DNA of 64,000 nucleotides from Polytrichum commune. Taxonomy: Eukaryota; Streptophyta; Polytrichopsida; Polytrichales; Polytrichaceae. How positions within the stretch are numbered: position 1 is the stretch's first letter; every line of letters begins with the position of its first letter. The stretch spans positions 29,871,501 to 29,935,500 of the forward strand of contig OX485805.1 in NCBI GenBank assembly GCA_950295325.1. Direction: 5' to 3'. This document shows positions 18,761 through 48,738 of the stretch, piece by piece. The notes under the pieces were generated by a model that was given only the letters and a program-made list of their open reading frames with translations, was not told the origin of the DNA and did not search any database. Both the position numbers and the translations under genes were made by a program.

Positions 18761-18999
18761 TTGTAAAATTCACAAACAAATTAGACAATTGACAATTGAC
18801 AATTTTTTTCATTGGATATAGTACATGTGTACATAGCAGTGTCATACCGGCAGTACACCTTGATTTCAAACATTTACAAGTCAAGCTTTACTTATTCAAA
18901 CCCTGAATAATTACTTCCCATGTAGGCAATGGACACCAAGCACCCTGGCCCATGATTTTGACCCCCCGATCCACTAACTGGGATGCTACTCATACTTCC

Positions 19000-21900
19000 T
19001 CACAAGACCGCGGTTTCCTGATGCTTTAGCAAGGCTAGGTCGACAACTTTCCTGAAGAAAGTTCTTGGGTAAATAGATGGTGTCTCTGCAAGAGCCTGAA
19101 AGAGAGATATCTATGTTAGGAGCCCGTCTAGCTTAGTATGCTGGGAGAATATATGTTAACATAGCCTTCAACATGAAAAGCCAACAGAACAGATGTTGAG
19201 ACCTAAAAAATTCCCAGGAGAAATAGCAGCAACAAACTGATAAGATACAAAGATAACAAAAATATTAAAGACAATAAAAGTGAAAAATACTTGATGGATA
19301 AGGACAGTTGATGGAGTCATCCCTGGCACTGTATTGGCTTCGATAATTATAACCTGCTCAAATTCAAAATAATGTCATTTCATTTCATATCCTCATAATT
19401 CAGTTGGGTAGGTAATATTTCCATTAAAATATCTGTAGTTATGACAGATAGAAGCTCTGATATTCAATAAAGAGATTACATAATTGTGGAGACCACCCCT
19501 AATAATTCTGTGAGGATCAATCACCATTCAAGCCAATACTTACCTCGCCTGTGTCAGCATGTACGAAGGCATCGATACGTGCAAATCCCTCCAGGCCCAA
19601 AGTGTTGGCAACAGCCTCTATTCGTATTTTACAAGCTGTGTTTGCTTCCTCCCTGTAAGGTTAAAATACCATAAATAAAGGTAAAGCTAAATCCGTTGAG
19701 CAGAGCCAAAGCATTCTACAGGAAGTTACTCAAAGAAAGAACCAGAGAAAAAAACATTTCACTCAATTCAAACTAGGTCTTACGTGATGAGTGATGTTGG
19801 TGGTGGTGTCAAATTAACACCAGTTCCACCTGCCACATTGTAACCCCCCATACATCCATTAGAAATCTGGTGAGGCTACTGTTACACAAAAGATGGTCAG
19901 CTAAGAAAAAACCTAAGAGAGTCTCTTTACTGACATAATAGAGTTATGTGCAAAGTCTGTCAAAGACTGATCAAAGTAGGAATTTGGTGCCTCTTTGAGG
20001 GACTTTCCTATGAAGAGCTCGAAATCTTGTCGCAGAGCCTAATTTTGAATCATTGGTGAAACTCCTTGAACCTCTTTCAATTCTTTTAAGAGAACTTTAA
20101 TTATCTATATAGCATTTCGCCACTGGGGCCCCCGAGCACCCTAAAATTAAACCTCGGACTATGTAAGGCTAGCTTGGCCCAATGATCCTAGTATGACAAG
20201 CTAGAAATCCGGGTATTTATAGCCCGGCCCCACTCTTTTAACATGTCAATTTAAGCCTTAAGAAAACTTGGGTGACTTTATGCATCAGCTCTCAAACTCA
20301 ACTTTGGAGACTCTATGAATAACTCCATCGTGTATTTTGAGAGAGAGAGAGAGAGAATGTACCTTGAAATTTCTCTTCGAGAGTTAAAATACCCCCTGTC
20401 TCTTTAACAGTGATGCTGGGATTCAACGCATGCATTGCTCCTTTTAAGCCGATAACTCCAACAGTAATCTCCAACCAGCGATTCTTGCCTTCCCAGGAAA
20501 GTTGACCCCTGGTTGGATTGCTCCCTGTGTTTTTGGAAGTTGAAGCCACTAACACATCATCTGTCTCAATGAAGGGTTCAAATAACAGTCTTTTGGGTGA
20601 TGGATTCGGCATCTCAATAATTCCATGTGGCTGTGGAGGTGTCCAGAGATATCACAAAACAAGATCAATCAACCATCAATTTGAATATACAATTCAGTTA
20701 CCCCTCAACTCAATGGGACTTTTCGTCGGGATTTGGTCCCCTTTGATCCTCATTGGTTCTTTTGCATACAGAACTAATAATTTCTTTCCACTTGTGGTGC
20801 ATGCTGGGATGTAGTGTTTGAATTCGAATGAAGAGCAACCTACTTTAGTTCATGGTATGCCAAATGAGTTTGACCCTTCACGAATTGATATAGAATGTTC
20901 TTTGTTCAAACCTTCACACTGAGTCCGAGCATCCACCAAAAACCTACTGAACATGACAAGTGTTGTATGCAAAACAATCAACTCCCAACCAAAAGTCCTG
21001 TCAAGTTGAAGGATAACTCTAAAATGCAGCTATTCATAAGAAGTTGAATACTTTCAAACTTTAAGCATAAGCATCCAACAGATACAAGCATCTCAGCAAA
21101 TCAAAGAAATTTGACAGGGACTAGACCCATAATAAGCTTAGTTAGATGATAGATTTGAGAGATATACACATCTGTAGTGTGCAATTACAGATAGTTCAGG
21201 GAAGCAGGACTTGCCTTGACAAAAGTACCAGGCTGTATTTGTGGAAGCCCATCCTGAATAGCCTTCACATATGCTGCCAAATCTTTCGCACAGCTACATG
21301 CCATGAGGAAACGAAATTCTCACAATTACACTCTCTTTTCTCAAACTAAAGCTAGGCGTGCCTAATTCAGTTACTGATCTTAATCAGAGACCTATATTTC
21401 AGTGGTATGTGGTTAGGTGTGGCTCCAAGGACGGATATGAAAAATCATATATTTAAAAGAGATCAGACTACATGCTCAAATATGATATCCATTTTAGTTT
21501 CAATAGTCAACATAATTGGAGGGGACTATATGACAATTTAACGAGCACGAGAATCTTTACTTTGATAATGCATAAGATATTCATATGAGCACCGAAAATT
21601 ATGAGGAAGGTGGCTATGGCCTCGATTTGGATTTGCTAACCATCTCATAATAATTACGTGTTTCATATCCTAGGAGAAGTGGGCTAGACAGAAAACTTAA
21701 CCATTTAAGACCCATCTACCTTCAGTAATAATCATTAGTGGCCTTTTTCAGCATAACACCATTGATGGACTTCTATTAAAACCCCATTATGGCCCCTTCC
21801 AACTCTACAATGCTGATCCTTTTCTATCACCTAGATTGAAGAGTGAGTTTTGGGTGGGTGGGTGGGTATAAGTACTGACACCCACGTGGGCTGACTAAAG

Positions 21901-24900: not shown

Positions 24901-27900
24901 ACTTCGAATAACAAAACGGTGACATCAACTTGGCCTAATGGAGGAGGGTGATGTCGTTTCGGCCCACATGGAGGAGGTTGATGTCTATTCCGGGGGACTC
25001 AAACTCAAGATTGGGCCCAAAATCAATCTTCCATACGTTTTTTTATGACTTAATAGAGGACACTCAATATGGAATTTTGAGAAGATTCCTCCATTCCTCA
25101 TGGGTTTGTCACTCCCTTTTGCCACTTTACAGATAACTTTATTATCATTGATGTATACTTGCAATTCATAGGATTCATGCTCTTTCTTGGGCTCTTCAGA
25201 CCTCAGAATAAATCACCTTTCATGCTATTGTTACTCTGGCTAATCTTATCTTATCCCAAGCAGACAAAACATATGTTGGGTTAGACATATTAGAGGTTTG
25301 AAATAACTTTAACCAGAATGATTATCCATTTAAATTTCACAAACTTCCGGAGGCAAAATTATCATGCTAAAACAATAAAATGTTAAAAAATAACAAAAAA
25401 TCTGAATTCTGTGTCATGATTGCATTGTTTTATTATCGTTTTCTAGCATGTGCCACATTATGCTACTACGAAGCAATTGTCACATAAGATTTATACATAT
25501 ATTATAAGATAATTGCATTATATACCACAAGGTCAAATTTTAACATAATAATTAGAGAGTAAACTCCCCTTTGGAGATTTGTGAGGAAAGACAAGAAAGT
25601 TTGTCACACGTGTACTTACGGCAATGCCCACACCAGCTTTTCCTCTGGATTAGCAGCTCTCAAATTTGTCTCAACGCCATCAGAATCTGGTGAGGCGAGC
25701 AGAAAGGGTGATACATCAAGCTGCAAAAAGACAAACATATATTACTTGCAACTTAGTATGAACATTTGAGAAGTCTGATTTGCATTCAAGAATCAACCAC
25801 TGAAATCAGATTTTAGTACCTGATGATCACACAAACATTTTCAGGCTAAGTAGAGTTATAAAGAGAAACCATTTGACCCAAAATTCAATTTGTGACTGGC
25901 CGGGCAGAATTGTACTTTTCAAGAAAATGCTTCCTCTAAGAGTTGTACTCCAGAAAAATGGGCAAGTTAGATTGAGGTTTATATAGCAACTTACATCATT
26001 GCAAGCCCGTAGGTTGAGCCAAACATTAGTGCCACTTATCAAAGAAACTTGTCGTTCTGAGGTGTCTCCCCCAAATAACACAAAGATTTTTTGCCTGGAT
26101 GAAACCTCTTCCTTTACCATTCCTGAAATTGATTTGGAAGCTCTGATTGATTCAGGGAGTGGGATGGTGGAGTATCGTGAACACGCATGCTTAAGAATCG
26201 ATCGAAGTATGTCAGCATGTGACATCCCCACCTGAAAATTGTCCAGGGTTAGGAACTGCAGTAATTGAATGATAGAAAGCAGACTTTATGGAATGGTAGA
26301 AAGCAGACACATGAAACCATTCTGCAGCAAAATTCCTTTTGGTCAGTTTTTCGTGGTCGACTACAAAATAAATCCTTCTTTTCTAAGTGATGATCATGTG
26401 CTGAATTTTATAACTACTTGTAATGTGCATCAAAGTATTTGCAGTCTTGTCACATGTATGTATTCCACAAATGCATCTGCGGTAGTTATTTAGGACGGAA
26501 AGTCCTTACAAGAGACCATTTTTACTTCAACCAAATCTTACATCAAGCAGAGACAACTCACTTGTGCACCTTGTTGAAATAGAATGCTGGTCTGCTCCAT
26601 TCCGCTCATCTGTAGGCTACTTCAAAATAAGCATTGGGATTCTGAACAACTGTTTTTCCATAAAACATACTCCCTCTGTTTCAAAATAAAAGTTACGTTT
26701 GGACATAAACTGCGTTACGAAATAAAAGTTACATTTGGTGAAATTTCTCTCAAACTTCGCCAAACGAACTGGAATGTTGCCAAAAACAATGTAAAAGTTG
26801 TTGCTGATGAACTACCAAGTCAAATAACTGATAATACATGTTTAATAATTGATATTTGGACTCGATGGCGTCGATGCACATCAACGCGGTTTTATGTGTG
26901 AGATCAATTGGTGTCAATCGTCAATGGCAATGAACGGGTGTTACTATGGACACCCCTAGCTTGCCGGAAAGAGCTTAGTGAGGGCTATGCAACGCACGCA
27001 GTTTCGTGCTAAAAGTGCGAAAATTGACCTTAAGCCCACGGATTTTCTAAAATGTAACTTTTATTCTGAAACGGAGGGAGTATGTCCACAGGTTGGTCTG
27101 ACAGATGCTCACATTCAAAATGACGATTTGTAAATAAATAAGCAAGAATAGGACAACAATCCTTACCAAGTTGATGTCAGAGAAAACAGTAATTCCTGTA
27201 TCCAATTGGCCAAACAAGCATTGTTGCCCTTTACTAGCAGCAGCAGTTAACATTTTGGGCGGTAGCAACCAACCATCAACACGAGCAACATCACCAAGCT
27301 CGAGTATTTGGAACAACTTGGCTGCTCCAGATCGAATATGTTGCACAATTTCCTCTGAAAACCGAGGTGGGGTGTGGAAGGACACCTATACAAAATACCA
27401 AAATTAGAATGAACTCTAGAAAATCCCATGTCAACAAAGTTAAGTTTGGAGTAACGTGCTTCAATACCAAGATTACACAAGGGAGACCCATGGAAGAAGC
27501 TTAGGTTCGAGTGGTTGTTCATCCTACTAAATGTAATCCACTAATAGAGAAGGAAACAGAACAGCAAGAAGATTCCAAACTTGAGTATCTAATGACTAAA
27601 AAATTACGCTATGCAAGTAGTTTCTTATGATAGACTACATTTCTTTCCGTTAAATAGATTCTATTGTACTATGTGTTACAGTTTGACATTTATATTTGAC
27701 TTCCCACTGACCTAAATACCTTAGAGTTATCCTTAAACTGAATGGGACTTTTGGTTGGGAGTTGGCTGTTTTGCATATAACCCTTTCCATGTTTGATAAG
27801 TTTCTTACCCAAGTTTGGAGGTTGTGTGGAGGTTTGAACAAAGAACATTCTATATCAGTTCATTGAGGGTCAAAGTCATTTTGGCATGCCAAGAGGTGCT

Positions 27901-30900
27901 AAAATGAGTTTGGTCCTCAATGAACTAAAATAGGGTGGTCTTTCTGTTATTCAAATACTACCTCCAAGCATGCACCACAAGTGGAAAGAAATGATTGATT
28001 TTTTATGCAATACAACCAATGGAAAATCATAGGGAACTGACTCTTGACGGAAGGCATTCTCTAATATAAACAATAGGCCCACAAGGACAAAGATGTTTAC
28101 CTAAATTCTCAAACTTATTAGACTGCTGTGTTAGTTCTACACCCCTCAATAGATAGGACCAAAAAGTGTCCAGAATTCTTTGACACAAAATACCTGGGTT
28201 GTGGGTAAGTATTTTCTGCGATAGTCGAATATAGTGTCTTCCTCCTCAATTGCATCTCGTTGCCGTAATTCTATCTGCTTGACATCAAACTTAATCAATG
28301 TCATTTGTGCAATTTGATCTAAAACCACTTTATCATCACTTTACAAGAAAGGTGACACAACATTGCTCATGATAGAAACTAGAGAAAAAGACAACCTCAG
28401 TTGGTAGCAGAGTGACAGGGCGAGACTGATATTTAGATCCCACATCAACCACAACAGCAGTAAATTCTATTCCACCCTCCGCAAACGCCTCAACAACAAC
28501 TCTGTCATGAATGCCCTGCACACAGCCGACAAAACAACTCATGATAATACTCCGAACCTCCCTGCAAGTTCAACCTTTGTTCCACTGCAACATAAATTGT
28601 GTAAGAGGACTCTCTAAAAAACATTTCGGCCTAATAAATTCTAAATGATAAATGTTGAGGATTTTGAGCTCCAGATACAACTACAGCATGTACCAAAATC
28701 TGTATACATTACACAAACTTATGGCAAACTTGACAGTTGCAATGATTCTCATTGATCTGAAATAGTATTCTTTGTTGGTTACTATGTTGAAGAACAGTAG
28801 GCTCTGTGAATCATGAGTCATGATCATCAATAGAGTTATCCTCTAACTAAACATGACCTTTGGTTGGTAGATGGTTGTTTTGCATACAGCACCTTCCATG
28901 TTCAATAAGTTTTTGGTGCAGGCTTGGAGATGATGTGGAGGTTTAACAAGAACAATCTATATAGGTTCATTGAGGGTCAAGCTCATTTTGTAATGCCAAG
29001 AGGTGCAAAAATGAACCGAAATAGGTTGCTATTCATTCAAAATTAATCACTACCTCTGAGCATGCACCAGAAGTGGAAAGAAATTATTGATTCGGTATAC
29101 AGCACAACCAATGGAAGACCATAGGGGGCAAACTCCTGACAAAATGTCTCATTGAGTTAAGGGATGACTCTAATGTAGAGTTCTTAAAGTAAGAAAGGTG
29201 TATCTACCTCAGCCAACAATGCCTTGGCTTGTTCCATGGCCATCTTCATACCAATGGCAATACTAACTCCCACACTTGAGCCTGCGCGTGCTGGTTTCAC
29301 CTATCAAGCAGGCTGGCTATTGAGTAGTATAACACAAAAATAAGGATTCTTCAACAGAGATTCAAGGAAAAATTGTCAACCACACCAACCAAAGATATAT
29401 CCACAACGGATGCCTTCAATTTGCACATAGTAGTGAACTATAGCAGTACAACATCAAAGGATAACAAGAACTCATGATAGAGGAAACAGAAAGAACTCAC
29501 AACCTCTGAGTCCTACGATGTGGACAAAGGGGGGAGGGGGGGGGGGGACTTTTTTTCCACGATGTTTAATCACCATTCCACTTCTTTGTACTCACCACAA
29601 CTCGTCCTGTGATAGAGTCTATGTGGTTGTTGTAGAACCATTTGGCCAACCCATAGTTGTCCACCTTGCCGGCCTGAAGAGCAAGGAGTGAGTATTTGTG
29701 GCTCCAATGTCACAAGCCAACATTCAAAATGCAAAAAGTTGGGAAATCTGTTGCTGGCAGGACAAATTACTGATTCCCAGTCACAACTTATTATTTTCTG
29801 TATGGCACAACAGCACTACGGTAGGGTTCAGATTTTTAAGATCTCTAGTGCGAGCAATTGTTAAGAAATAAAAATGCTTGAAATCAACAACATTGTGCAT
29901 TCATTCAGCATCAGTACATCAACAAGGTGAAACTGAACCGTCATCAGTATTTTCTCTCTAATTGTGGATGGTCGCTTTGCTTGGGGAATAGTGACAAGGA
30001 TTAGAAAGCACACCTCAATAAGAAACATTGGCAAAGTAGCAAACCCATGTCTTTCCAGCTCAACAGCTGCATTGTACTGCAGGTATTTTACAAGTCGAAC
30101 AGTAAGTCAATCATTACAAATTGAAAATAAGAGAAATAACCTTTATTTGGTAAATCCAGTAGATTTATCCTTTCCCTCAATTAGACTTTTCGTTGGGGGT
30201 TGGTCTCCTCTGATTTTCAATTGGTTGTATTGCATACAATAGTAACAATTTCTTTCCACTTGTGCATTCACAAAGGCATTGCTTGAATTTGAATGAGGAG
30301 CAACCTATTTTGTTTCATGGAGGGCCAAACTCATTTTAGCACCCCTTAGCATGCCAAAATGAGTTTGTCCCTCAATAAACCTATATAGAATGTTCTTTCT
30401 TAAACCTCCACATCATCTCCAAGCATGCACCAAAAACTTATTGGACATGGAAGGTGTTGTATGCAAAACAACCATCTCCCAACCAAAAGTCATGTAGAGT
30501 TTGAAGATAACTCTAATAACTTGGTTGAGAACATTTACCCACCTTATCGAAAGCACGTTGTGAAGCTGCAGAGCTAGTTCCTACGTATGGGATACCCTCA
30601 CTTTCGAGAAGCGCCTGAATAGCAACAACCCAAGTAGAAAATCACAACCAACATCAACACTATGCGTCATCAATGCAGGAGATTTTGCATCTCAATCAAG
30701 CTCACCAACACTAAACACTCATCAAGTCTAAACCTCAATCAGGCTCACCAACACACCCTTTCAAAACTGGCTAAATAGATAAGCAGCAATTGTGAAGCTC
30801 AGTTTCATATAGATATCTATTACCTCCAGTGATCATTACTGCTACACAAGGTACACTTAGGGCAACTCCTATGGTCACTGAAAAATGGTTCAATTGGCTT

Positions 30901-32542: not shown

Positions 32543-32661
32543 AGCGCAAATTATTTTTAGTTGCCCACATCGACGGGAGTTAAAAGGCAGAACAAACTTC
32601 GCAGATGCAAGTCGTGCAATGGGAAAAAGGTGTAATCGATCTATAACAAACTAACAATCCC

Positions 32662-32820
32662 CGCTTAGGAGGATAAGATAGAATGGCCTATTCCAGATCC
32701 GATTTTCTGGTTGAGGTTTCTGAATTCTGTCTATATCTTGAGCGAATCTTTGAACAGTGACTATTGCCGACTTCTCACTTCACGTCAGGTACATTGATAG
32801 AATTGGGAGGATAAATGGGG

Positions 32821-32864
<44 letters not shown>

Positions 32865-35262
32865 CGATTTACATTTCTTATTTTGGCGGGCCCTTTGATC
32901 TGGTAACACATCAATATGCAATTGCCGAAATCTGCTCCTGTGCACTAAGTCCAAGCTACAAAAGCCTCAATTTTCTTTACGCTCACCGTGATGATGTCGC
33001 TGCATTAATCTTCGAGCTGGAAGTCCGCCGTTGCGCTCGCACCTTCGGCAGTCGCAGCAGACTTGAGCATAACGCAGCTTGATCAGCACCTCCAGGTGCC
33101 AAATTCGTCTTTCTGTAGGCTAATTGCGAACATGGGGAAAACATCCCATCGACATTTTTTTGAACTACGGATGAGCTCCAAGAATGCAACAACACGCGCG
33201 ACATGATGCCGAATCCTCTCCTCTCCTTCAAAATCCAAATAATAAAAATCGCAGCACTCTGACTCACATTCCAGCAAAATCTCTTATCTGTGTCTCTTGA
33301 AAACCTAACGTAACAAAAACAATTATTACATGCATTCGATTCGATTTGAAACAGATGTCATGAAGCTGTTGATGAAATCCAAGGGAATCACGCAACAGAT
33401 ACTTTACGAGATTGGTGTTGACTCTAGCCGCAAGTTGGAGGTGAGAAATTTATGGTACAGTTATATTTGGTTTCCTTTCTCTCCAGATTGATGTCGATAA
33501 TATTGGAGGAGGACGTGATCTCTCGAGAACTTCAACGGCAGAGATGATTTGTCAGTACGGCAGAATAATGACGTGGGGTGCCATTCCACGAGTCGTGGAG
33601 CAGGTATCTCGATTCTCGACTACCACTTTGACGTGGAATTTCTAGGACTTTCCAAAACAATGAAAGGGGAGAACCGACCGCTAACTTAGTTAAAGGTGAA
33701 CCGGTTGAGTTTGAGACATAACCGGTTCGAATTAAAGACTTCACGAAAATTACCAATGAACTTCGAGGTATTTACAGAATATTCTCCAATTAAAAAACAA
33801 AAGATGTCAACGTGTAGCTGGTTGGTCTTGGGAACATTAGGATCTCAACCACTTATGCCTCCCGGACACTGTTCCAAAAACACCTAAACCCTTTCACGAT
33901 AACTTGGAGGTAGCTCACACTGGTCACTGGAGGCTTGCTTGTGAGGGAGACTGCTCATTGATGATCTGATAATTGATTCTCCTAATCAAACATGCACTTA
34001 AGCTTAAGCTTATCCCAGTTCACAATTCTTCAGCAACTGCATGCTCTTATCATCAATAAACAAGCCTGACAGATTTTTCTGGTAATTTGTAAATTGAACT
34101 AACAGTGAAATTGAAACTGGATACAAGCACCAGATGATTCACTTCAACAGAATGCATGTGCATAAAGTTAAGCTTTCGGCTCGTCTTCACATGCTTCTCT
34201 TCAAGCATGTTATTTCCGACAAATTACATGTGCATTTAGAATTGGAGCACTGAATGTTTCTCTGCAATAGAATATATGTGCATTAAGAAGTCGGCTTCTC
34301 TTCACACACCAGAATACACATTCTTAAGAATGACACTTTTTGATTAAAATCATTTCTGTACTCTAGCATTCTTAAGAATGTCTATGGACATACACTTCTA
34401 TTCGAGATATAACGATCAGTCCAAGAACCAAGGTCCTTGAATACATGCATGAATGCCAAGCATATAGTCAATGGCAAGCTTGCATAGTCAACACGTCATT
34501 GTTACCTATCTTCAGGGAAAGCCTTCTCCCATCTACCAAGATTCAACTAGCCAAAAAGAATCTCACTGTATAGGTTACACTCTTAAGTGCTTATCCAGGG
34601 AATGCTATGAACGTGTGTATATACAATTTATACACATTTGAAATATATATATTGGCAGTGGCAGGTCTACACATTTAATGGATGTGCTTGTGGGCTGGTG
34701 CTTGATTTGGAAAAAAAATACCCACAGGATTCTGATGACAATGGGAAATTGTTGCAGCACAGACAAAACTGGTCTTGGAATAAGAAAGGTTCATGTGCAC
34801 ATCCTGAATAATATTAGACCTCTATGCATACCAATGATCTTGGAATGACTTAAGGTATATCTATATCTTCAACTTTTTGGGTAACGAAACAATTTATTTC
34901 TGTCGATAAAATATACAGAGTTGTAGAGTGCTGTAAAATTGCACTGACATTAGAGTCTTGCATTCAGAGTGGCGGACAGGTGAAGATCTGCTCAAGCTCC
35001 ACTTTCCTCCCTGCAAATCTCACCAAGGTAAACAAAGCATTGATTCCTCTCAGGCTTGAACACCATCATACATTTGACATCATAGTGAAATTCAGAAACA
35101 AGCCTAAACCCTAAAGTCTTCAACACTACATCATTTTGGAGAATCAGTTGCGTCTCCAGAGCAGCTGAAAGGCTTCGTGGATGACTTCTTGCAATGTACT
35201 CTTCTTGTCAACATAAGAAAACATTAATAAAATTGTCAGTATTCTGTTTTGCATTTTAAAAC
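32662..35262. other. Intergenic region between DDL and thioredoxin
   Basis: A (CT)n tract lies at 32823-32861, in the presumed DDL leader/promoter. Minus 33083-33277 is an unusually protein-like open frame (CDFYYLDFEGEERIRHHVAR). The plus strand at about 33363-33600 has a frame starting MKLLMKSKGITQQILYEIGV with a candidate donor at 33440 and a continuation after 33485 (GGGRDLSRTSTAEMICQYG). Neither is recognised, and the implied 46-bp intron is short for a plant. Either could be a broken gene or an alternative leader exon. The rest shows nothing. Confidence 0.35.
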
Positions 35263-37578
35263 TTACAGAAGCTCTTCAACCTTAGTTCGCAACCTCTTTG
35301 AGTCTGCTCCACTGAATGATGATACAAGTTTCCCACCTGTGTGAAATTGAAAAGTTGGCTGCAGGTACAAAACCCACTCAAGTTTGTTATTTTTTACTTA
35401 AATTCACAGTTTAGAACAGAATTCCATATGCAAGCATGAAGAACTCAATAATCGTGGCAAAGCTACACAAAGTAAGCCTTGCCTGAATGCTAGACAAATG
35501 TTGCTGGACTAGACACTTGGTTGCACAGAGAGTGAAGTCAAAAAAGAATCTGTTACCAACAACCAATATGACCTAAATCCTAAAGACCACTCAGAGTCTT
35601 TGACAAAGTACCAGTGCTTGAAGTTGACAGAATATTCCAGAATAACAATCAAGCAAGTGAAAAGGCATACCACAGCAGTGATGCCAGCAGCATCTACAGT
35701 TCTTTGCAGCTCTGGCTGTTGATTCAAACCAATTCCAAAAACGTCATGTCAGTTAGGATACTCATGCAAACAAGTTATCAATCTCAGTCTTTCAATTACG
35801 TGTAACTTAAGGGGAAGCTGAGGTGTAGACATACCTCATCAAGATCGACTTTCAAAAACTTAACATCCGTGAAGTCCTCACTTAGAGAGTCAAACACTGG
35901 TGATATGTGCCGACCTGGACAGAAGAACCAAATAGCAAGTTAATTTATATACAGAAGTCCAAAACAGAAGACAACATTAGAGTTATCCTTTAAATCAAAG
36001 GGACATTTGGTCGGGAGTTGGTTGTTTTGCATACAATACCTTCCATGTTCGGTAAGTTTTCGGTGCATGCTTAGAGGCAGTCATGTGGAGGTTTGAATGA
36101 AGAACATTCTATACAGGTTCATTAAGGTCAAACTCATTTTGGCATGCCAAGAGGTGCAAAAAATGAGTTTGGCCCTCAAAGAACCTTATGAAATAGGTTT
36201 TCTCTTCATTCACTTTCAAACACTACCTCCAAGCATGGACTACAAGTGGAAGGAGATTATTGATCTTATAAGCAAAACAACCAATGGAAAATCAGAATGG
36301 AACATCAAAAGTTCGAATATGTCAAGAGGTGAGAGATCTGAATTGACAGATGAGGGATGCATAAACTTACAAGGACCGCACCACTTGGCTGTGAAGTAAA
36401 CCACTGCAACTTTGTTACTGTCTGCGAAATGAGCAAGCGCTTCCACATCAGTTCACCTCTCATTACGATACCAATATTCAATGTGCAGTAGATGGGTTTT
36501 TTTGGGGAAGTGTAGTAGTAGGAACTGAAGCTGATCGGATAATACCTTTTGCTTCCTTCAACAAATTGCTGTATTGATCAGCATTTGACACAACCACCAC
36601 TCCAGCTTTGGATGCAGTTTCACCTGTCAACCCATACAGACAGACAATTGACACCATACCAATGAGTGCCAGGGTTTAGGGTTTCACCGTTGAAGCATAC
36701 AGACATTTCTCTGTTCATTCGGAGGCCTGTACCGGTTTAAATTGCATTACACCATCATATATATGACCTACCTCCAGGATGGCAAGCCAGGAGAATGTCA
36801 AATCCTAATGCTTTGTAAATCTTGGTCTGAACTCACAAAGTTTTTTATTCACTTCAATTTGAAGTGATGCACCATGAAATTCGAAGAATTCCATTGAATC
36901 CATAATGCCAAGGCAATGTATGCTATCCAGGCGTTTTTTCATTTCTGAGAGGGATCCTTCAATGCAAGTGTAGGAGGATCCTTCAATCTTCTGGCCATAT
37001 TATGCTTTCAGGACATCGAAGTGGCACGGGCGAAGGTTTAAGGCCTGTAACTAAGAAATCTGACTCCAGTTTTTAGTGAACAAAAAACCTGAGAGTCATC
37101 AACATCATCGAGACTGTCGATTGAGTTAACCTTCCTCCAAACAGCATCACTGGCCAGTGGTCACCGCAGAATTCCTTCCTATAGGCCTTGCCGATGGATT
37201 ACACCCTCACTGCGCCCTAGCTAGACTTTTCAACCTTAGGAATTTGGTGCACTTCTAAGAAATTTGCGTTGTCAATGCAATTCCAGCTCCACATGCCAAT
37301 TCAGTGAACAATTGTTTCACAAAGACCCTAAACCCTAAACCAACATACAAGAGAGGCAGGCAAGATGAAAGACCTGAATTTGAAGTGATGGATCGGGCAG
37401 AAACCACCTTGAGCAGGTGGAGATTCTCCTTGCCAGAATTGTTGGCTCCAAATACATCAGAATTCTTGACAGAATTTGAAAGCAAGGATGATATAGGCGA
37501 TGGTGGCGGTGTGGCCAAAGTGCGAGGGACCAAGGAGTACAGTGGTCGACGCAAAGCTCTTAAAGCTCTAGACGCCAT
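35263..37578 (-). CDS. TRXO: Thioredoxin o-type, mitochondrial
   Basis: Dithiol oxidoreductase of the mitochondrial (and nuclear) thioredoxin system. There are six exons: 37578-37374, 36623-36546, 36448-36371, 35914-35835, 35715-35671, 35358-35263; 582 nt, 193 aa. Residues 1 to about 70 form an Arg/Ser-rich presequence (MASRALRALRRPLYSLVPRT). The catalytic WCGPC is at 117-121, split over the exon 3-4 junction. The KFLKVDLDE block is followed by ITAVPTFQFHTGGKL with the cis-proline at 163. The protein ends LRTKVEELL. Intron 2 lacks an AG acceptor in the needed frame: the only solution joins at GTGAACTG|ATGTGG, a TG acceptor, with an in-frame stop just upstream. That implies non-canonical splicing, a mutated allele or a base error. 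The gene is divergent from UFL1. Confidence 0.88.
35980..36300. mobile_element. Palindromic MITE family P, copy 6 (thioredoxin intron 3)
   Basis: Starts TA|GAGTTATCCTTTAAATC. The arms and centre match the other copies (ATGAGTTTGGCCCTCAAAG). The right terminus has degenerated, so its end is approximate. It lies about 65 bp from thioredoxin exon 4 and 70 bp from exon 3. Confidence 0.7.
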
Positions 37579-38296
37579 AGCTCTCCAACAGTGTCGATAA
37601 TAGGAAAATTCAATGAAACTCTCAACACGAAAACTGCAAGAAGATAATACAAATCTTCAATTCTAAGAACCTACTTCAAGGTAGCGTAAACCTATCGTCA
37701 CAGGAATCACGAGAGCAAAGCTGAAGGTTTACATAACCTGAACTTATAAGTTAACCTCCGAAGTCTCTTTTCTCAATGCTAACTTAGAAATAAGTTAGGA
37801 TGAACTTTGGAGTGCTCACGCAAGCTTTTAGTTGACCATAACTTTTGCACTCTGTAACTTAGGGTTAGGGTTCTCACGTCTATATGCCCTTTTCACCCTT
37901 GACATGATGTTTTTTCAACTACCGACCCATGTGTGCTTTCGATGCTTTCGGTGCACGCTGGGATCGTAATTCATCACTTGAGGTTCCTTTCTGACTCAGT
38001 GTAGAAATTCTGAATACGCCCCTGCCATCGAAAGCCCATTTGGCTCGAAAATCTGATCACTCAAACTGGCATGTTTTTCAGCGATTGACTCATGTGTGCT
38101 TTCGATGCTTTTGCACTCTGGGATCATAATTCATTACTTGAGGTTTCTCTCTGACTTGTTTTAGAATTGCTGGACACATCCCTGCCATCAGAACCCAAAA
38201 ATCTGCTCGCTCAAACTGGCAATCGAAGTTTTTCGCCTTCCTTCTAATTTCAGTAGGGGTTAGGGTAGTGGGGTGAGAGATTTGGAGAAGGGAGAA
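37579..38296. promoter_or_regulatory. Divergent promoter region between thioredoxin and UFL1
   Basis: 718 bp separate the two start codons. Telo-box-like TAGGGTTAGGG motifs are at about 37860 and 38255. A tandem duplication occupies about 37907-38232: CATGTGTGCTTTCGATGCTT begins at 37928 and at 38091, about 163 bp apart. Each unit continues with GGGATC(G/A)TAATTCAT, CCCTGCCATC and CTCAAACTGGCA. If the duplicated block carries binding sites, both genes would see the doubling. The function is inferred from position only. Confidence 0.6.
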
Positions 38297-41200
38297 ATGG
38301 ATGCGGATCTTCTAGCGCTCCAGAAACTCTTTGAGCAAACACAGGAGTCAAAAGCTAAGGTTCGGTTGTCAGAGCGAAATGTGGTGGAATTGGTGTCTAA
38401 GCTGCAAGAGATCAATCTCCTCGATGCCGATCTGCTTCACACAGTCTCTGGTAAAGAGTACATCACTCAGGTCAGTGTAAAGCACTATCTGAATTACCTA
38501 ACCCTTTCACTACAACCTTCAAGGCTGGAAATCTCGGTTTAAGCCCAATTTGAAAAACTACATGTCAAAATTGTCTTGCCAGGGCTTAGGGTTTGAGACA
38601 AACTAACTCCACTAGGACAGAGAAACCCTGGTCCAAGTTTCTCAGGCTGGACGGCAAAGTATGTGTGTTATGCTTAGAGACCGAAAGTATTGTATTCTCG
38701 CGTTTCTGATGAATACTTCACCGGGGACCTTGCACACTTTATTATTTTTCAATAGCATGGTTCAAGTGATTGGCAAAAGCATCTCTGCACATTGGAACAT
38801 CAGTGATGATGAATATGTGTAAATCATAACTGCAGAGTTTTAATTATGATGACTAAGTTAGCATTTGAAATAAAGGTTGTGTTGCAGCTGACTAAGTGTC
38901 AAGTTACAGGATCAACTAAGGCAAGAGATGGACTCGGAGATTCAGCGTCTCGGTCGAGTTTCTTTAGTGGACCTGGCCGGCACTCTTGGTGTGGAACTCA
39001 TCCATTGCGAAAGGCAAGCACAGCAAATTGTGCAGAGCAATGCAGACTTGACGTTGGTTCAAGGCGAGATTCTTTCTTCCGGTTACTGGGACGCGGTTGC
39101 AGAAGAGATCAATGAGTCATTGCAAGTGGCAGGGCAAATGTCTGTTGCAGAGCTTGCTCGGCGATTAACTGTTGGCGCAGAGCTCATAACCAATGTTCTT
39201 ACCAGCCGCTTAGGGACTTCGGTGAGTGGTGATTGCTGATAAATCTGGTTCAGTTATGATGTGTTTATAGACATCAGAAGATGAATGCCATCTCATATTC
39301 TTATTGAGTGGTTCTACATTGAATAGTACGTTGTGAAGAGCAAGCTTTTGTTCTGTATGTGATGACTGAGTCCTTTGTGCTAATTATTATAGTCAAGAAA
39401 TCAGGGTTCAATACACTTCCAAAACTCTTTTCTGCTTATGATTCTGCTTATGGTTACATACTGATTTAGCGACAGGCTTCAGTAACTAGGAGACTTGACG
39501 AGCCCTTGTTTGAGGGTTTAAGATGGTTGTGTGATTTATGCATGCTAATAGATTCATGGAAAGCTCGAAGGGGGCCAGCTCTACACACCAACTTTTGTTG
39601 CACGAATCAAGGCTACTGTGCGGGGTGCTGTCCGAGCTTTGATGGTGCCTACTACACTCTCCACCCTCTGGATTTCCCTTCAGCAGCAGCTGCGTGAGGG
39701 GGAAGAAGGGCCCGCTGCCAAAGTCAGTAGTGATGGGGGTTTGTATCACTCCATCCTCAACCAGCTGATCGCAGAAGGCGAAGTCAAAGGTTCTCTTCGA
39801 GGAGGAAATGCTGTCTACACACCTGCGGTATGTCATCCAATATAATCACTGCTTCCTTCAACGCTTTCTGGTTTTATCTTGAACTGTGTGTGGTTAAAAA
39901 TGCCCCAGATAGATTGTACTAAAAAATTCGTGAATGACAGGCCTGTATTGATCATGAACACATTTGTTTTGTCAAATCTATATTTGCTGTTGACTATTAA
40001 TGAAGTGTGTCAAGAGTTGTGGAAACAAAGTGGTACTAATTTGGCATCATTTTCCTGCCAAATGTTGGCAGTCCCCACTCAAGAAAATACTTCTAGTATG
40101 AGAAACCTATCTTCAAGCCTGAGTCCAAACTCGAGTCTGAAAGTAAGGTCCATTAGGGGTGTTTTGGACCTCAAGGTTCTTGGACCTGGACTTTAATGTC
40201 AACCCACCCCTAAGGTTGCACTAATGGTGATGTATGAAAATAATCTAGACTTGTATCACGATGCATCTGATTTTGCTCAGATTTTATATCAACTTTATTA
40301 CTGGTATTCAGAAAGCAGCAAGTTCTGGATGTGACACCATGGGATGATTTGCATTTCAGGTCTTTGCAGTGGCCCAACGAGGAAGTGTAGAGTCATTCTT
40401 TTCTCAGGTTTGTTTTCTATACCCGTTTATCTCAAAGGTTTACATACATCAGAACCTCTATGAACAATGTAGAATTGTAGCATTTCAAGTTTAAGCTGCT
40501 GAAGATGTGAAGGTGGAAGGAAAATTTGTCAAAGTTGTTTTGACTTGATATTGAGGTTGTTTGGTTTACTTCTTGCAAACAGAATGGATATATTACATAT
40601 GATACTCTGCGAAAGCTGAATGTGCCACAACCCAAGCAATACCTACAGGTCTGAAAATTACCTTCTGGTTTTGCTGTTAGCAAAGAGTTTTGACTGTTTT
40701 GGTTTGTATGCTTTGTCAATGTTATTTTTTGTGAACTGATCTGAGACGTCAACTTGCACTATGCTTGTGCTCATGGAATCTTCCCAATCACACTCTAAAC
40801 TTGTAAGGCCTGTCCAGTTTTAAGATCCTCCTGCTGGAAGTGTACTGTATAACTAAAATCGAATGTAGCTCATTTGTGCAAGGAGATCAACGTCCTGTTC
40901 CTCTTGCAGCAATTCATGGTCTAAATTCTGCATGTTTTTGTGCTGATGATGTTGTCCAGGATAAATATAGGGATGGGATTGCTTTAGATTCTGTTTTTGT
41001 CCACCCCTCAATTGTCAACCAGCTGGATGCAGTTGCAGAGGAGGCTATTGCTGGAAATTCCTGGTAATTGTTTTTCACCATATAATCTACATCTGTAACT
41101 CTCTCAGTGGCAAAGACCATATAAAATTAGAGCTGATTGTAAAAGTTTAGAGATAGAGTCATCCTCTAACTCATCATGACTTTTGGTTGGGAGTTAGTTG

Positions 41201-44200
41201 TTTTGTAAACAAAACCTTCCATGTTTGATAAGTTTGTGATGCATGCTTGGAGGTAGTGTGGAGGTTTGAATGGAGAAAATTCTATATCAGTTTATTGAGG
41301 ACTTGCAAGGAGATCAACGTCCTGTTCCATTTTTGGCATGCATAGAGGTGCTAAAATGAGTTTGACTATCAATGAACCGAATTAGGTTGCTTATGAACCA
41401 AATGTCAACACTACCTCCAAGCATGCACCACAAGTGGAAAGAAATTATTGATATTGGATGCAAAACAACCAATGAAAAATCATAAGGGACCAACTCCCAG
41501 CCAAAAAGCCCCATTGAGTTAAAGGACAACTCTAGTATTCCAAAGACAGTGACTTTTAGGATTTAGACTGAACCCCCTCACTTCAATTTGTCTCTATATG
41601 AACAAGAACAGATGTTCTGATTTGGTGGAGTTTGTCTTTGCATTTGCAGGTGTGATGCATTGCCATTGGTGCCGCCATCCATTGAGACCTCAGATACAGC
41701 CAAATTGGTGACGTTATGTCCATCTGTACAAAGAGCCCTCAAAGTGAGAAACAACAATTTGCCTGTACACATATTTAATTGTATTGCTGTTATACAGAAC
41801 TTTACTTCGACCCAGGCTGGAACTGAAAGTTGGTATGAAATTTGCTCAAGCTTTGAATACTGAGCTTGTGTTGAATACTCACTATGTGTTTGTAGGAAAG
41901 CGGGGCTGTTATAATGGCAGAGACATGTGTTGTGAGTAATGCGTTCATCAAGGTGAGGAAATCTCAGAGAGGATACCACCTTGCTTTTTGTGTTTCGCCC
42001 TCTGTTTATAGTACCCCAACCCTTTGCAATTGTCAATCATGAGGATTGTCATTTCAAGTTTCAGTATTGGATTAGAGATGAAAAATATTATAAGTGTTCA
42101 AGGTGAAGATTATCTTTGTCTTTATGTGATCACTTAGACCCTCTCAATTGTGTTCATTATTGCACCTAGAATGGTATCTAGATTTTGAGCACATAGTTTA
42201 ATCTCATCGTGGGTCATTTATTATGATGTCCAATCATCACTACAAGCCTTACCATACACCATTCACATAGTATCTCTGATTACATAAGGTCCACATTCTT
42301 ACCCTCCCTTGTCTCTTTCTCAAAAACTTGATTAGAAGGACCTCACCAACAAAGAGAAAAAGGATAGGGGATAAGGGACAACCCTATTGCACACCATGCT
42401 GAATGGTTCTCTTTACTATTTGCTTGAGAGTTTGTTTTATCTTTGTTGTTGTTGTTGTTGTTGTTGCTGTTGTTGTAAGTTCTAGCATGTGAACATGGCC
42501 AAGGGCCAATTTACTTTATGGCGAAGGGCCGTGACCATGATGAAACTGTGATGGCCCTTGAAACTCATCCACATGACATATCATGGAAAATAAAATTGAA
42601 TCTTGTGTGGTCACGGGCCTTCAAGTGTGGTGTAAAGACATACATGGCTGGGCTTTCAACTGAATGTTATGTCATTACCATCCTATTCGTGTGGGCCCTT
42701 AAGGGTTGAGATTTGAAGTGACATGGTCTCCCAATTTTGTTCTAGAGCCACCTCTTTGAGGTGGAACATGATGCAAAATCCAGCAGACCTTGAAACAATA
42801 TCCATTGCATGCCATGTAGGACTCACTCCATGTAGGTTTGATCCGTTCAAACTTCCTCGATCCCTTAGATCCTTAAGCTCTAGTGTAAAATGAAGTGGAA
42901 CGGTCTCAGTTTTGTCCACCAATGAGAGATTTTAGATTTCAACAGCCACAGGCCCTCAAGCTCTAGTTTGAAGTGGCCCTAAGTCTCTTACACTCCTGGA
43001 AATTGATATGGTCTCCATGCGATGTGTCTTTGGACAGGCTCTCTTTGAGAAATTTGAGGGTGTTGCTCGTGACCTTGCTGTAAAGAAAGCTGCGGTAAAG
43101 AAGCTAACCAAACCTGCAGCACACAGTGTTGCTGAGGATGGTCATCCAAATTTGGGAACAGAATTTGGAGTCGAGGATCTTGACTCTGGGAACACCAAGG
43201 GTGTGAGACGAAAAAAAGGGAACCAGACTGGTGTAGCAACAGCCAAACCTGTGCCAGAGATGGAAATTATGAGTGATCGTAAAGGAAAGAGGCGGGGTGG
43301 AAAATCAAAGGGAGAGAAACATTCTGGAGAATCTGTTGCTAATGTTTCAAAAGGATTGAAAAGCGGTGCTGCTGGTAAAGGAAGTGGTATTTCGAGTGAT
43401 GAGGATGACCACTTCACCATAGAGTATCTTGCTACGAAGATTCTGGAGTGGTTTCCTGATATGGAAAGTGCAGGAGTTGGTAAGTCACTTTGCATATCCC
43501 CATTGTTGTAGACATTTCAGGTTGAGTTCAACAGAGTTATTTGTGAACTCAATGGGAGTTTTATGTGGGGAGTTGATCCCCTATGATTTTCCATTGGCTG
43601 TTTGTGGATACGAAATCAACAATTTCCTTACACTTGTGATGTTACATTCTCAGAGGTAGTGTTTAAATTTGATTGAATAGCAATGTTCTAGCACCTCTTG
43701 GCATGCCTAAATGAGTTTGACCCTTAATGTACCGATGTAGAATGTACTTCATTCAAAACTCAACTCTACCTCCAAGCACGCACCAAAAATCTATCAAACA
43801 TGGAAGTATTTGTATGCAAAACAACCAACTCCCAACCAAAACTTCCATTGAGTTTAAGAATGACTCTAATATGGACAAAGTCTACCTTATGTGGTTGTTT
43901 TCTTAGGGTTGATATTTTTCTGTTTCAAATAGTGTGCATAAAGATCTCATTTAGGACCATTTTTTGCTGAAAGTAAGAGAATCCAACCTGAACTTTTCTA
44001 TTGCAGAAGAAGAAGATGGTGTGTTAGTGAGATCCTTGGCAGAGTCAGTTAGGCCAAAAGTAGTGGCAATTGCAGCTCAAGCAAAACAAGCTCTCTTTTC
44101 AGCTCAGGCTGAAGACCGCCGCCGCCGCATGGATACATTGCAATCAAAGATTGATGAGGTGATGCTCTTACAGTACTCAGCTTGTTAGTTGTGTTGAAAT

Positions 44201-47125
44201 ATATTGCCAAAAATGTGTAATTTATTCTTGGTTGTGAGTTTCAATGTGTCCAGTTTGGCTCCAATTCATATGGGGTTTATGGGTGCAGATATACTCAAAC
44301 TTTCAGCTGTTTTCAAAGGCATTAGACCTATTTGAAGACAATGACAAAATTGCGGTGGGCTTCTTACACATTTGTTGATTGCTTTTCCATCTATAAACCA
44401 AACTGGATTGCTCATTTCCTTATACAAATATTTCTATGGTGTCTATTTTGAACGAGCAGAGAAGTTTTACCTAGTTTGGAATGTCTTTGAGCAGGTGATC
44501 CTGCATCGGCATCTCCTACGAACGACAGGAGCCGAAGTAGTGGACTTATTGTTGAAAACCCTGGTAAGGCATTTCATGTGAGAATATTTTGTCCTGTTAC
44601 ATTGGAATAGAGTCAACTAAGACTAATGTCTACTCAGATCAAATTTAAACACTAACATCTTTTGAATCGTGAATGCAGACAGAGGACGAAATTATTGAAA
44701 GAGATACGTTGGGAATCACTCCTGACATGTCAGAGACATTAAGTACCTCACAAAGACTTTCTGTGGTAAGCAACAAGACTTGACACTTGTAGAGCAACAA
44801 TGTGGCTTGAGCTGAGTGGTTCTTGTATAAACTTGTCTAGCTTATTTGAGTTATCCTTTAATTTTGAAGGTAATTTTTGTGGGACTTGGTGGTTTTGCAT
44901 ACCACACCTTCCATGTTTAAGTTTGCGGTGCATGCTTGAAAATAGTGTGGAGGTTTGAATGAATAACATTCTATGTTGGTTCATTGAGGGTCAAACCCAT
45001 TTTGGCATGCCAAGAGGTGCTGAAATGAGTTTGGCCCTCAATGGACCAAAATAGGATGCTCTTCATTCACATTCAAACACTACCTCTGAGCATGCACCAC
45101 AAGTGGAAAGAATTTATTGACATTGTAAACAAAACAACCACTGGAAAATCATTGAGGACCAACTCCTGATGAAAAGTCACATTAGGATAAATCTAATATC
45201 ATGGTAACTTTGATGTTGCTGTTAATGCAGGCTAAGAATCTGGCAGGACGTAACTTATCTGCAAAGGCTGTGGAGATGGTTGAGGCTTTGGAGGGAAAGG
45301 TATGACTTACCTTGAAAGTTGACCACCAATTACTGAATGTACTCCACTGACATACTTATGTGGTCTAAGCAGACTATCTTAGGCTCTTCTGGATAGTATG
45401 AATGTTAAAAATGTTGATTTTCCAACACTGTATCGAGATTGCATCTACCTAGTTGCAATTCGTGACATTTTTGGTGTGAAATCTGAGTGCAGAATGTGGA
45501 TTCTTTTGACTCGGTATTGGAAGCTGTTGTGACTGAGAGGTACTGCTTCTCTTTCCTAAACTGTGAGATGAAGCATTAAGAACTTGGTAGTGACATCAAA
45601 TACTTGCTAGTATTAATGAATGATTCAATGTACGTTATGCTTAGCTTGTGATATGTGTACCTAGTTGCTGAGTTGATATATTTCATATTTCTTCAGCTGT
45701 AGTGTGGGCAGAATTATTTGCAAGCTCTAAACCCTAAACAAATCTAAAAAGGTTTCTTGCTGTGTATCAGTGGCTTGAGGCTGAAAAAGCTTGATAAAAA
45801 GAGTGAAAGGGCTCTGTTGTTTTCTTACCGAAAGGTACCATGACTTTCCAGCAAGAGTTGGTATTTACAATGTTGAATAAGTATAGTAATTGAATTCCAG
45901 TGGGCTTATAAATTCCAGGTTGTCTGACATTCATAAATACAGTGTAAATGAGAAGGTCATATATACTGGAGAGAACCATCTGTTATATTAATTTCTATTG
46001 AAGTCTATATATAGTTAACAGTTGTGTGCCTGATTTTTGGCAGAGTTTGGCTTCACAAATTGAAGAGGAGACTGATTGTGTGGCCCTGCTACCTAAAGTT
46101 GTGGGCTTAATCTTTGTTCAGGTTATCCTCTTTGTGGATATTCCGGTTTGTGTGAAGAACAAACTTAGTGCTTAAGACTGTTAGTTTAAGAATTTTTACC
46201 CTCAATAATTTCTCTTGAGCATCATGTGCCATGGTGACTACATAATCATACCAAAATTCGCCTCAGAGTAGTTTGTGGTCTTGTTCAGGTCCATCATCGC
46301 GCTCTTCAGGCACCAGGCAGGGCTGTATCAGCAGCTATCACGCGCTTGAAGGTTCGCATTCTAATTTAAGTTCAATTTACCGACTGAAGAAAGCACACAA
46401 AAAAATTTGAAGTTAAATCTATGTCTGGCTGCAACCTTATGGTGTATGTGGGTGTTTTATGTGCACAGGGTTCAATAGCAGAGGAGCTATTTGAAACTTT
46501 GATGGAGTATCATAAGTTTACAGTCCAACTTTTGTCTGCACAGGCTGCTCCAAACTCTGAGGTACACACTGCATACCTTCAACGTTTTAAAGTCTGATGC
46601 TCGAAGCTCCAAGTTCCATATGGTTGAAATCTGAATTTAATATCTTGACATGACATAAACCATGTCTAAGATTTTCATTGAAAATATCCTTAAGCAATCT
46701 ACAGCAAGGTATTAGACAATGAAATTGTGTCCTAAAACTAACCTATGTACAACAGAGTTTGCAGGATTGAAAAGAATGCAATCATGTGTAGGAATTGTGG
46801 CTGAATTTCAACATACTAGATATTGCATAGAATTGTACTATGGATTACTTCATGTACTTGACCATATTTGCACCCTAAATCCAACTTACTCCTTTAACCA
46901 GAGAATCTCATTAGAAGGATGAAGATGACATTTTTATTTGTCTGATCTTCAAAGTGCCATCAGGGCTATTCTGACTGGCTGATCATTGTCTTGGAACAGG
47001 AAAGTGCAAATTCCCCAAGTGATGAAGCCACAAAAAGAACACAGTTGGAGAGCCTTATGCCCAATTTGAGATCAATTGTACTCTCGTCCTCTTTACCTGC
47101 TTCAACAGTTAATGATAACCAATAA
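38297..47125 (+). CDS. UFL1: E3 UFM1-protein ligase 1 (UFL1)
   Basis: Scaffold E3 that transfers the ubiquitin-like UFM1 to targets such as ER-bound ribosomes. There are 20 exons: 38297-38470, 38910-39221, 39552-39827, 40360-40407, 40583-40648, 40960-41063, 41650-41743, 41896-41952, 43038-43479, 44007-44158, 44289-44354, 44495-44563, 44679-44765, 45231-45299, 45493-45539, 45771-45834, 46044-46121, 46289-46351, 46469-46561, 47000-47125. They sum to 2487 nt, 828 aa, with all junctions in frame. Diagnostic blocks: SERNVVELVSKLQEI and LLHTVSGKEYITQ (residues ~25-58), LVQGEILSSGYWDAVAEEIN, GKLEGGQLYTPTFV, VILHRHLLRTTGAEVVDLLL, and ALQAPGRAVSAAI near the C terminus. Exon 9 encodes a Lys/Gly-rich, probably disordered, variable linker (residues ~380-500). 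Start 38297 fits the family; an in-frame start at 38273 would add eight residues. Introns 6, 9 and 13 contain family P MITEs and intron 8 a family A MITE. Confidence 0.93.
41156..41532. mobile_element. Palindromic MITE family P, copy 7 (UFL1 intron 6)
   Basis: TA|GAGTCATCCTCTAACTCAT at the left and AGGACAACTC|TA at the right. The segment near 41304-41327 (GGAGATCAACGTCCTGTTCC) is an exact copy of sequence at 40880 in the preceding UFL1 intron 5 and is not shared with other P copies. That suggests local gene conversion or template switching. Confidence 0.78.
42503..42979. mobile_element. Tourist-like MITE, family A copy 3 (UFL1 intron 8)
   Basis: The right end GAAGTGGCCC|TAA and the interior (CCACCAATGAGAG, CACCTCTTTGAGGTGG) match the family A elements at 837-2028. 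The left end GGGCCAATTTAC is diverged and preceded by CAA rather than TAA. A (GTT)n tract lies just upstream at about 42444-42476. Confidence 0.75.
43534..43866. mobile_element. Palindromic MITE family P, copy 8 (UFL1 intron 9)
   Basis: The left end is GAGTTATTTGTGAACTCAAT and the right end TTAAGAATGACTC|TA. The orientation is as copies 1 and 4. The centre is partly deleted around 43689. Confidence 0.75.
44848..45193. mobile_element. Palindromic MITE family P, copy 9 (UFL1 intron 13)
   Basis: The left end is GAGTTATCCTTTAATTTTG and the right end TAGGATAAATC|TA. It has a well-preserved centre, TGAGGGTCAAACCCATTTTG / GAAATGAGTTTGGCCCTCA. It lies 37 bp upstream of UFL1 exon 14. Confidence 0.78.
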
Positions 47126-48738
47126 CTTCAACCCCCCCGGTTGATACCACCCAGTATCACATGTGGACACGAAAACATCTGGAGGATCCTTGCTAAGGTA
47201 AGTGGGTCTAAAAAGGAAACTTTGCACCCACTTCTTTTAGGATATTAAACATGCAATCAGTACGAGATGATTAGCGAATACAATTTGAGGCCGTAACCAT
47301 TTTCCTCATAATTTTCTAAGCTCATATGAATATCTGTATCCTTATCAAGTTTATCTTTCTTCTTGAATGATCATATAGGTCCCCTTAATGATCTTGACCA
47401 TTCAACCCTAGATTGTTCAAAAAAATGTTCAGCGCGTTTTTCAATCTCTTTACACACATGATTCCTTTTTGGTGTCCATTCTTAGATCCACACCTAACCA
47501 CACATCACTCAAGCTTAGGTACCAATTAAGACAAGTAACCAATTTTGGAACTACTTACCTTATCTGTAGCATAAGGCCATCAAGAAGTTCTAGACTTTCT
47601 GAACAAAAAAAATCTCGCTAAGAGACTTGTAGGCCCAATAAATTATTCAAACAATACAAGAGTGTCTCGAAATTGAAACATGGATATATGATGAGGCAAC
47701 TGACCTGGATGTTGACTATTGGCAATTGCAGGAGATTGAAGTGACTTTTGTGGGAAGCCTTGGAGCAAGCATCCATTCTCCAGTATTCATCTGACCTGAG
47801 TAGAAAATATCAGAAAATTTGTTCTGTATGAAGTTCAAAGAGGTTGGTGTTATTTGAAACAGCGCATTCACTTAGATTGAGTCTCTATTGTCGTCACATT
47901 AATTGTGTAGTTTTTATTGATTGTGTCACTCTGTTCTCCTTGGTCACTCCTTCGTAATGTGTCCAATAGGCTAGTGAATGTCAGTGAATGAGATTGAAAT
48001 GGTAGAGGGCAACACACAGAAGCTCATATAGCATTTTAGTTTTAAATCCCAAGGTTTCTTGCAATTACAGAACCATCACACCAGCTCATGACAGTTAGTA
48101 AGGATTCTGACAGCACACCAAAATGCTCGCCCCTGTGTATGGAAATACACTTTAGAACCGCCTCCACTAAATATCAATACTAAATATAGCACTTAGGTTA
48201 ATCTGTTCACGTCATCTACACTTTGGATCTGATTCCTGCAACCACTTCAATTTGACACATCTTATGCAATTGTGATTCTCAAGTTCATGGTAAAGGATTT
48301 CCCCTGAGCCCACCAAGGTCTCAATTGGGAAAGCCTTGCACAACTTTGCCATGTACATGGGCAACTTTGTGGATCGTTCTAAGAATATGTGTATTACTCA
48401 TATCCCCAATTTGCTGACACATGGTATGAACAAAACACATATACATGCACCTCTTGAGAAGACCTGTATCAAGTAGTGCATTATGTAGTTTGGCAGGGCA
48501 TTACATTTCTAGGCTAGGCATTATGTTGTTTACCAGGGTATTGTGCAAACCAATCAAAATTATGAAAATTCAGCATGAATATACACATTCGGTAATGCAT
48601 GAGGGGGAGGGCATTATGGGGAACACGAGGACTTATGTGTTCAGCCATCACCCCATACATTGCCCTATTCCGCAGAATGCACTCCCCTTCATGCATTACC
48701 AATTACAATTAGAATAGCCTTGCAACTCAAGAATGAGG
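47126..48738. other. UFL1 3' flank and gene-free stretch
   Basis: The UFL1 3'UTR presumably occupies the first few hundred bases; no clear polyadenylation signal stands out. A partial palindrome at about 48470-48700 shows repeated GGCATTA/TAATGC and AGTGCATTATG motifs with opposed arms (TGCATGAGGGGGAGGGCATT against GAATGCACTCCCCTTCATGC). It looks like a small foldback repeat. No gene is seen. Confidence 0.4.

Follow-up and report, generated by a model that had tools for sequence, protein, structure and literature searches.

Family P, present as nine copies in the window (the whole 64-kb stretch of DNA analyzed here), is a MITE of ordinary build, and its well-preserved copies are associated with genes and with introns, an association in which targeting and survival stand unseparated. 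The account that we favor, and consider very probable, is that of a MITE mobilized in trans, inserted at TA and spread long ago, whose well-preserved copies lie mostly in introns, often several to a gene region. P would thus be a short, non-coding DNA transposon consisting of one imperfect palindrome of ~356 bp, and presumably a transposase made elsewhere recognized its GAGTTATCC ends and inserted it at TA in the manner of Tc1/mariner-type enzymes. Its old spread could reflect a preference for the DNA of genes, better survival there, or both. Introns would tolerate P because the element is spliced out and, after insertion, each hairpin would decay like ordinary intron sequence.

A profile search of the 64 kb at maximum sensitivity returned nine loci with E-values of 1e-114 to 8e-91 (Table 1), the first match below them having E=2.2. 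Self-comparison concurs with this search, both placing nine copies in the interval 20.7-45.2 kb and leaving the rest of the window without any. Because the element is self-complementary, every locus also gave a match in the reverse orientation, with E-values of 9e-41 to 2e-27. The copies are 325-378 bp long (n=9), six in plus and three in minus orientation, and the profile search found none between genes. The preliminary description, which had listed nine copies in both orientations with no intergenic member, was accurate on each point, and the starts that it gave are right to within about a base.

Table 1. Copies of family P in the window, the genes that carry them, and genomic loci with Pfam matches round a P copy. 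Joined exons are those flanking the intron named, unless stated otherwise.
Feature	Position	Strand	E-value (profile search)	Intron	Remarks
DDL gene (D-Ala-D-Ala ligase-like)	19003..33283 (approximate)	-			Dala_Dala_lig_N and Dala_Dala_lig_C on joined exons; five P copies
Thioredoxin-like gene	35250..37656 (approximate)	-			Thioredoxin E=2.3e-14; one P copy
UFL1 gene (E3 UFM1-protein ligase 1)	38292..47800 (approximate)	+			E3_UFM1_ligase on 5' exons; three P copies
P copy 1	20695..21019	-	4.1e-94	DDL 20631-21214 (GC-AG)	Joined exons open, no Pfam match
P copy 2	27724..28061	+	6.5e-105	DDL 27386-28193	Right end damaged; joined exons Dala_Dala_lig_C E=3.1e-7
P copy 3	28833..29170	+	5.9e-104	DDL 28516-29207	TA/TA; joined exons Dala_Dala_lig_C E=2.8e-5
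P copy 4	30162..30513	-	2.1e-108	DDL 30077-30542	TA/TA; joined exons open, no Pfam match
P copy 5	31762..32120	+	1e-114	DDL 31654-32156	Nearest to nine-copy consensus; whole-intron RNA folds at z -7.9; exons joined across this intron and the one before it, Dala_Dala_lig_N E=3.9e-9
P copy 6	35980..36332	+	1.5e-100	Thioredoxin gene 35915-36370	Right end not placeable; joined exons Thioredoxin E=2.3e-14
P copy 7	41156..41532	+	4.6e-106	UFL1 41064-41649	TA/TA; joined exons open, no Pfam match
P copy 8	43534..43866	-	8.1e-91	UFL1 43480-44006	Joined exons open, no Pfam match
P copy 9	44848..45193	+	5.5e-108	UFL1 44766-45230	Joined exons Pfam UFL1 E=0.0015, below cut-off
L008					Glycosyltransferase 8 both sides (Pfam)
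L030					TIP41 both sides (Pfam)
L031					DEAD both sides (Pfam)
L035					PPR both sides (Pfam)
L032					Rubisco activase round the copy (Pfam), one side weak, E=0.012
L034					GAF-HisKA receptor round the copy (Pfam), GAF side weak, E=0.0053

That these copies form one palindromic MITE family, as had been proposed, is borne out by a 356-bp consensus that is self-complementary along its whole length and folds from end to end in 145 pairs (-210 kcal/mol). Set against its own reverse complement, the consensus is 72% identical, with about 21 bp in the 3' arm that are absent from the 5' arm, a difference in length seen in most window copies; the ancestor was therefore already an imperfect palindrome. 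Its ends, GAGTTATCC and GGATAACTC, are terminal inverted repeats. The conservation of these termini, to which the preliminary description had attached importance, is evident though the ends are worn: the left end is exact in five of nine copies, carries one mismatch in three and two mismatches in one, and the right end is exact in one copy; copy 27724 has a damaged one, and in 35980 it could not be placed. Exact GAGTTATCC occurs seven times in the window vs 0.34 expected, six of these being ends of P and one (24757) lying outside any copy.

TA stands outside the left end of seven window copies and the right end of six (the end of 44848 being shifted by 2 bases), and on both sides of four, including 27724 with its damaged right end; a duplication longer than TA was not seen among the window copies. 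Of 32 copies, window and genomic together, 26 have TA on the left, 18 have it on the right and 13 have it at both ends; 27724 is not among the 13 because the 32-copy alignment places its damaged right end differently. These flanks fit a TA target with subsequent decay, and the TA could also belong to the terminal repeat. Comparison of the 300-bp flanks found nothing common to any of the nine window copies, and segmental duplication was rejected as their source on this ground. The copies are independent insertions.

All nine window copies lie in different introns, five in the DDL gene, one in the thioredoxin gene and three in UFL1, as had been claimed for them. Their placement relies on splice signals and reading frames; when the exons flanking each copy were joined, the frame was open across the junction in all nine pairs, and the expected Pfam family was found in five (UFL1, at E=0.0015, below the cut-off) and no match in four. 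Joined pairs did better than single exons, of which five of the ten submitted to Pfam had no match or only a weak one, and comparison of single window exons with solved structures gave no relevant match. The identity of UFL1 is secure, its 5' exons matching E3_UFM1_ligase with E=1.3e-32 and 3.9e-17; the exons round copy 7 we take, by eye, to be UFL1. Eight of the P-bearing introns are GT-AG and the ninth, round copy 20695, has a GC donor. They measure 456-808 bp, of which the element occupies 325-378 bp, and family P amounts to ~16% of the intron DNA of the three genes when approximate exon masks are used. The window also holds a nucleoporin FG gene, a BAH/Agenet gene and a bL27 gene whose product is closest to plant chloroplast bL27, a set that marks the host as a plant.

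Other repeats accompany family P in the window. Another DDL intron carries a second, unrelated palindromic MITE-like element (30854-31207, 79% self-complementary, ends near TTAGGGCAACTCCTATGGTCACTG), accompanied by a partial direct repeat (31214-31344). A further dispersed repeat family, 69-74% identical, is found in the regions of DDL and UFL1, and also downstream of the latter gene (21370-21683, 22690-22864, 47227-47542, 48789-48936). Two inverted repeats have arms of similar length: that at 836-2029 (~490 bp, 87% identical) is intergenic and perhaps a larger foldback element, and that at 55042-56524 (~489 bp, 97% identical), which also has short repeated units, looks young. Just past the 3' end of DDL, 18520-18780 resembles the terminal part of a reverse transcriptase (below cut-off for RVT_1, E=0.012) and is probably a LINE remnant, and an ORF at 10554-10979 looks by eye like a PIF/Harbinger-type protein; Pfam returned nothing for this ORF up to E 5.

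The preliminary description had suggested a possible intron bias from the window, and this is the point at which the window alone does not suffice. With exon masks that are approximate and placed by eye, introns make up 39% of the non-coding DNA of the window, against which nine intronic copies out of nine would be improbable (P=2.3e-4); within the stretch from the first to the last copy, introns make up 86% of the non-coding DNA, and the same result has P=0.26. When the nine positions were slid as a block, all were intronic in 116 of 2381 placements that avoided exons (P 0.05). Bias is thus not provable from the window, because most of the non-coding DNA between the outer copies (the 86% above) is intron. 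Furthermore, the window had been read before it was tested, and therefore its statistics prove nothing by themselves.

Support for the bias comes from the best-preserved copies elsewhere in the genome. A search of 407.8 Mb in 64 contigs, in which 40 of 3352 first-look candidates were scored, placed the best family P loci on at least seven contigs (C1 to C7). From these we took the 17 copies ranked 2-18 by likeness to one copy, with ~1.5 kb of flank on each side. Six of the 17 have Pfam matches to the left and right of the copy that share a strand and follow the order of the domain (Table 1). At another seven, exons were recognized by eye on both sides (L002, L005, L006, L007, L029, L037, L038), in a reading that was not blinded and to which random loci were not likewise subjected; at least one side of five of these seven has Pfam backing, weak or good, and neither side does in L037 and L038. 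The genes so recognized resemble those for TRAPP, TRRAP, CAX, ALMT (left side), NhaD and others. The context of the remaining four is unclear (L003, L004, L033, L036), L033 being flanked on one side by an exon with a Rubicon domain (E=5.2e-14), and an intergenic setting was demonstrated for none of the 17. Upstream of that exon, L033:171-2239 holds four complete P copies in 3.3 kb in alternating orientation.

The sequence on each side of the 17 loci, and on each side of 60 random points drawn from 20 random 10-kb stretches (200 kb), was scored for coding potential with a model trained on 7.5 kb of exons from the window. Median scores were 16.5 for the P loci vs 7.9 for the random points (P=2.6e-5; P=2.0e-5 with a noncoding model trained on the window). 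Both flanks scored at least 15 at 9/17 P loci vs 9/60 random points (P=0.0025), and at least 10 at 15/17 vs 24/60 (P=0.0004). Taking one random point per stretch gave P = 0.0003, 0.00001 and 0.007; when the highest-scoring of the three points in each stretch was used, the severest comparison, the difference was not significant (P=0.098). The score misses real introns, as L008, a certain intron, scores only 9.0. The 200 kb of random DNA contained no complete P copy and five partial matches of 22-121 bits at four or five places (L014, L016 with two, L020, L021), that in L021 running off the end of the stretch beside strongly coding-like sequence. The flanks of the 17 P loci (50.4 kb) held six further complete copies and three partial ones. 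P therefore clusters in certain gene regions, the window among them, and gene content alone is insufficient to account for this, because some random stretches, with up to 31% coding-like sequence, were as coding-rich as the window and yet lacked a complete copy. Thus, the proposed bias stands for the best-preserved genomic copies, 6 to 13 of 17 being intronic, and not for the window taken alone. The genome search that had been suggested thus covered the context of 17 ranked copies, with 200 kb of random DNA for comparison.

The copies are diverged. Those of the window share 84-90% identity with the nine-copy consensus and 74-82% with one another, and their tree is star-like with weak inner support; 23 added genomic copies average 89% identity to the common consensus (range 82 to 93%). 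Substitution rates lie between 2e-9 and 1.3e-8 changes per base and year, at which the copies would be roughly 10-75 million years old.

Several other explanations bear on the window. It might be supposed that these introns owe their existence to the P elements, acting as introners, and indeed the element makes up most of the intron in six of the nine cases (335-378 of 456-586 bp). In all nine, however, the ends of P are set back from the splice sites, by 30-195 bp on the 5' side and 37-338 bp on the 3' side, which rules out introner identity for the window copies, and introners are reported to be absent from land plants (PMC9860276); we attach next to no probability to this origin. Local hopping, or the duplication of gene segments, could have produced the cluster, given that copies 28833, 30162 and 31762 form the closest set (K2P 0.20-0.23, support 0.65-0.75) and that clusters occur elsewhere, as in L033. 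Nevertheless, distance along the window correlates weakly with divergence (r=0.26, P=0.09) and the flanks share nothing, and so we regard such an origin as unlikely. The preliminary description had further suggested that the hairpins affect splicing or are a source of small RNA. Each of the nine window copies does fold far better than 60 shuffled versions of itself (z -4.2 to -12.6), as does the whole intron of copy 5, but strong folding is to be expected because the copies descend from a palindrome. Were pairing selected, mutations would break fewer pairs than random placement; in the nine window copies 1021 of 1229 pairs were kept vs 1028.6 expected (sd 7.2), the largest single-copy deviations being those of 43534 (z 1.65) and 35980 (z -1.79), and in 32 copies 3772 of 4375 were kept vs 3753.3 expected (sd 13.3), with 83 of 1000 simulations as high. 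Nor was any Rfam family found at threshold in the window, or any tendency of the nine copies to lie nearer splice sites than by chance (P=0.59; the lean toward the 5' site is not significant, P=0.09). Pairs are lost as often as randomly placed mutations would break them and therefore no role in splicing or as small RNA is indicated; the suggested effect on splicing finds no support, and hairpins kept for either purpose are highly improbable.

Within the favored MITE account, two explanations of the intronic distribution compete. P may have been directed into transcribed gene bodies, by its transposase or by open chromatin. Well-preserved copies that are mostly intronic speak for this, as do remnants in random DNA fewer than expected had P also landed between genes (five partial in 200 kb). 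Against it, the 17 copies were chosen by their rank in similarity to a single copy; such ranking favors well-kept copies, and therefore the pattern could look alike if P were lost faster outside genes. Moreover, the coding-like random stretches without a complete copy argue that genes as such are not enough. We would place this explanation somewhat short of an even chance. Alternatively, P may have landed everywhere, its intergenic copies then being erased or broken faster. The DNA between plant genes turns over fast, the copies, about 11-13% diverged from consensus, are old, and the partial matches found in random DNA fall below the intronic copies in both length and score, all of which favor survival, but the remnants of P in random DNA are few. 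This, too, is a serious contender that falls a little below evens, and the two are about level. It is tempting to speculate further that P, with ends unlike those of Stowaway, is directed to transcribed gene bodies throughout the genome, most of its copies being intronic and several to a gene, by targeting and not by survival; taken as a whole, this proposition is doubtful.

Whether target choice, tolerance or survival makes MITEs accumulate in and near genes is disputed, and a family such as P, most of whose well-preserved copies are intronic, offers a clean test of that dispute in an assembled genome.

In its classification, family P presents what is expected of a MITE: short elements in many copies of similar length, terminal inverted repeats and independent insertions, the absence of coding capacity being judged from size and divergence. 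No DNA transposase was found among 18 distinct window ORFs given to Pfam, several of which are ordinary genes, and no autonomous element with P ends was seen in the window. A 29-base degenerate P pattern had no match in viral contigs, a search from which near records were possibly left out, and a 9-mer of the family recurred in the literature in unrelated contexts among the matches listed. Tourist MITEs (PIF/Harbinger group) resemble P in size and gene association, but the target of Tourist is the three bases TWA; the third base varies among the P copies 27724, 28833, 30162 and 41156, all four with TA on both sides, and Tourist or PIF/Harbinger membership was rejected accordingly. Introners, like P, are transposon-like and occupy much of an intron, but their ends or target duplications supply splice sites, and the ends of P are splice sites in none of the nine copies.

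A further likeness in build is to the Stowaway MITEs of the Tc1/mariner group, which are likewise short, non-coding and hairpin-forming and lie in or near plant genes; they target TA, which would fit the TA flanks of P. Stowaway ends are of the CTCCCTCC type, those of P GAGTTATCC, and we have not filed P as Stowaway because of this difference. In distribution, the families may also differ. Surveys disagree on how intronic such elements are: 1,991 of 11,674 Stowaway copies in carrot are intronic (PMC8227079), vs 6 to 13 of the 17 best-preserved P copies, samples that were not chosen alike; Stowaway-like elements of sugar beet show relative enrichment in introns, yet higher per-base density upstream (PMC12804786); and MITEs in three plant families are ordered with promoters and downstream regions above intergenic DNA and introns (PMC12550479).
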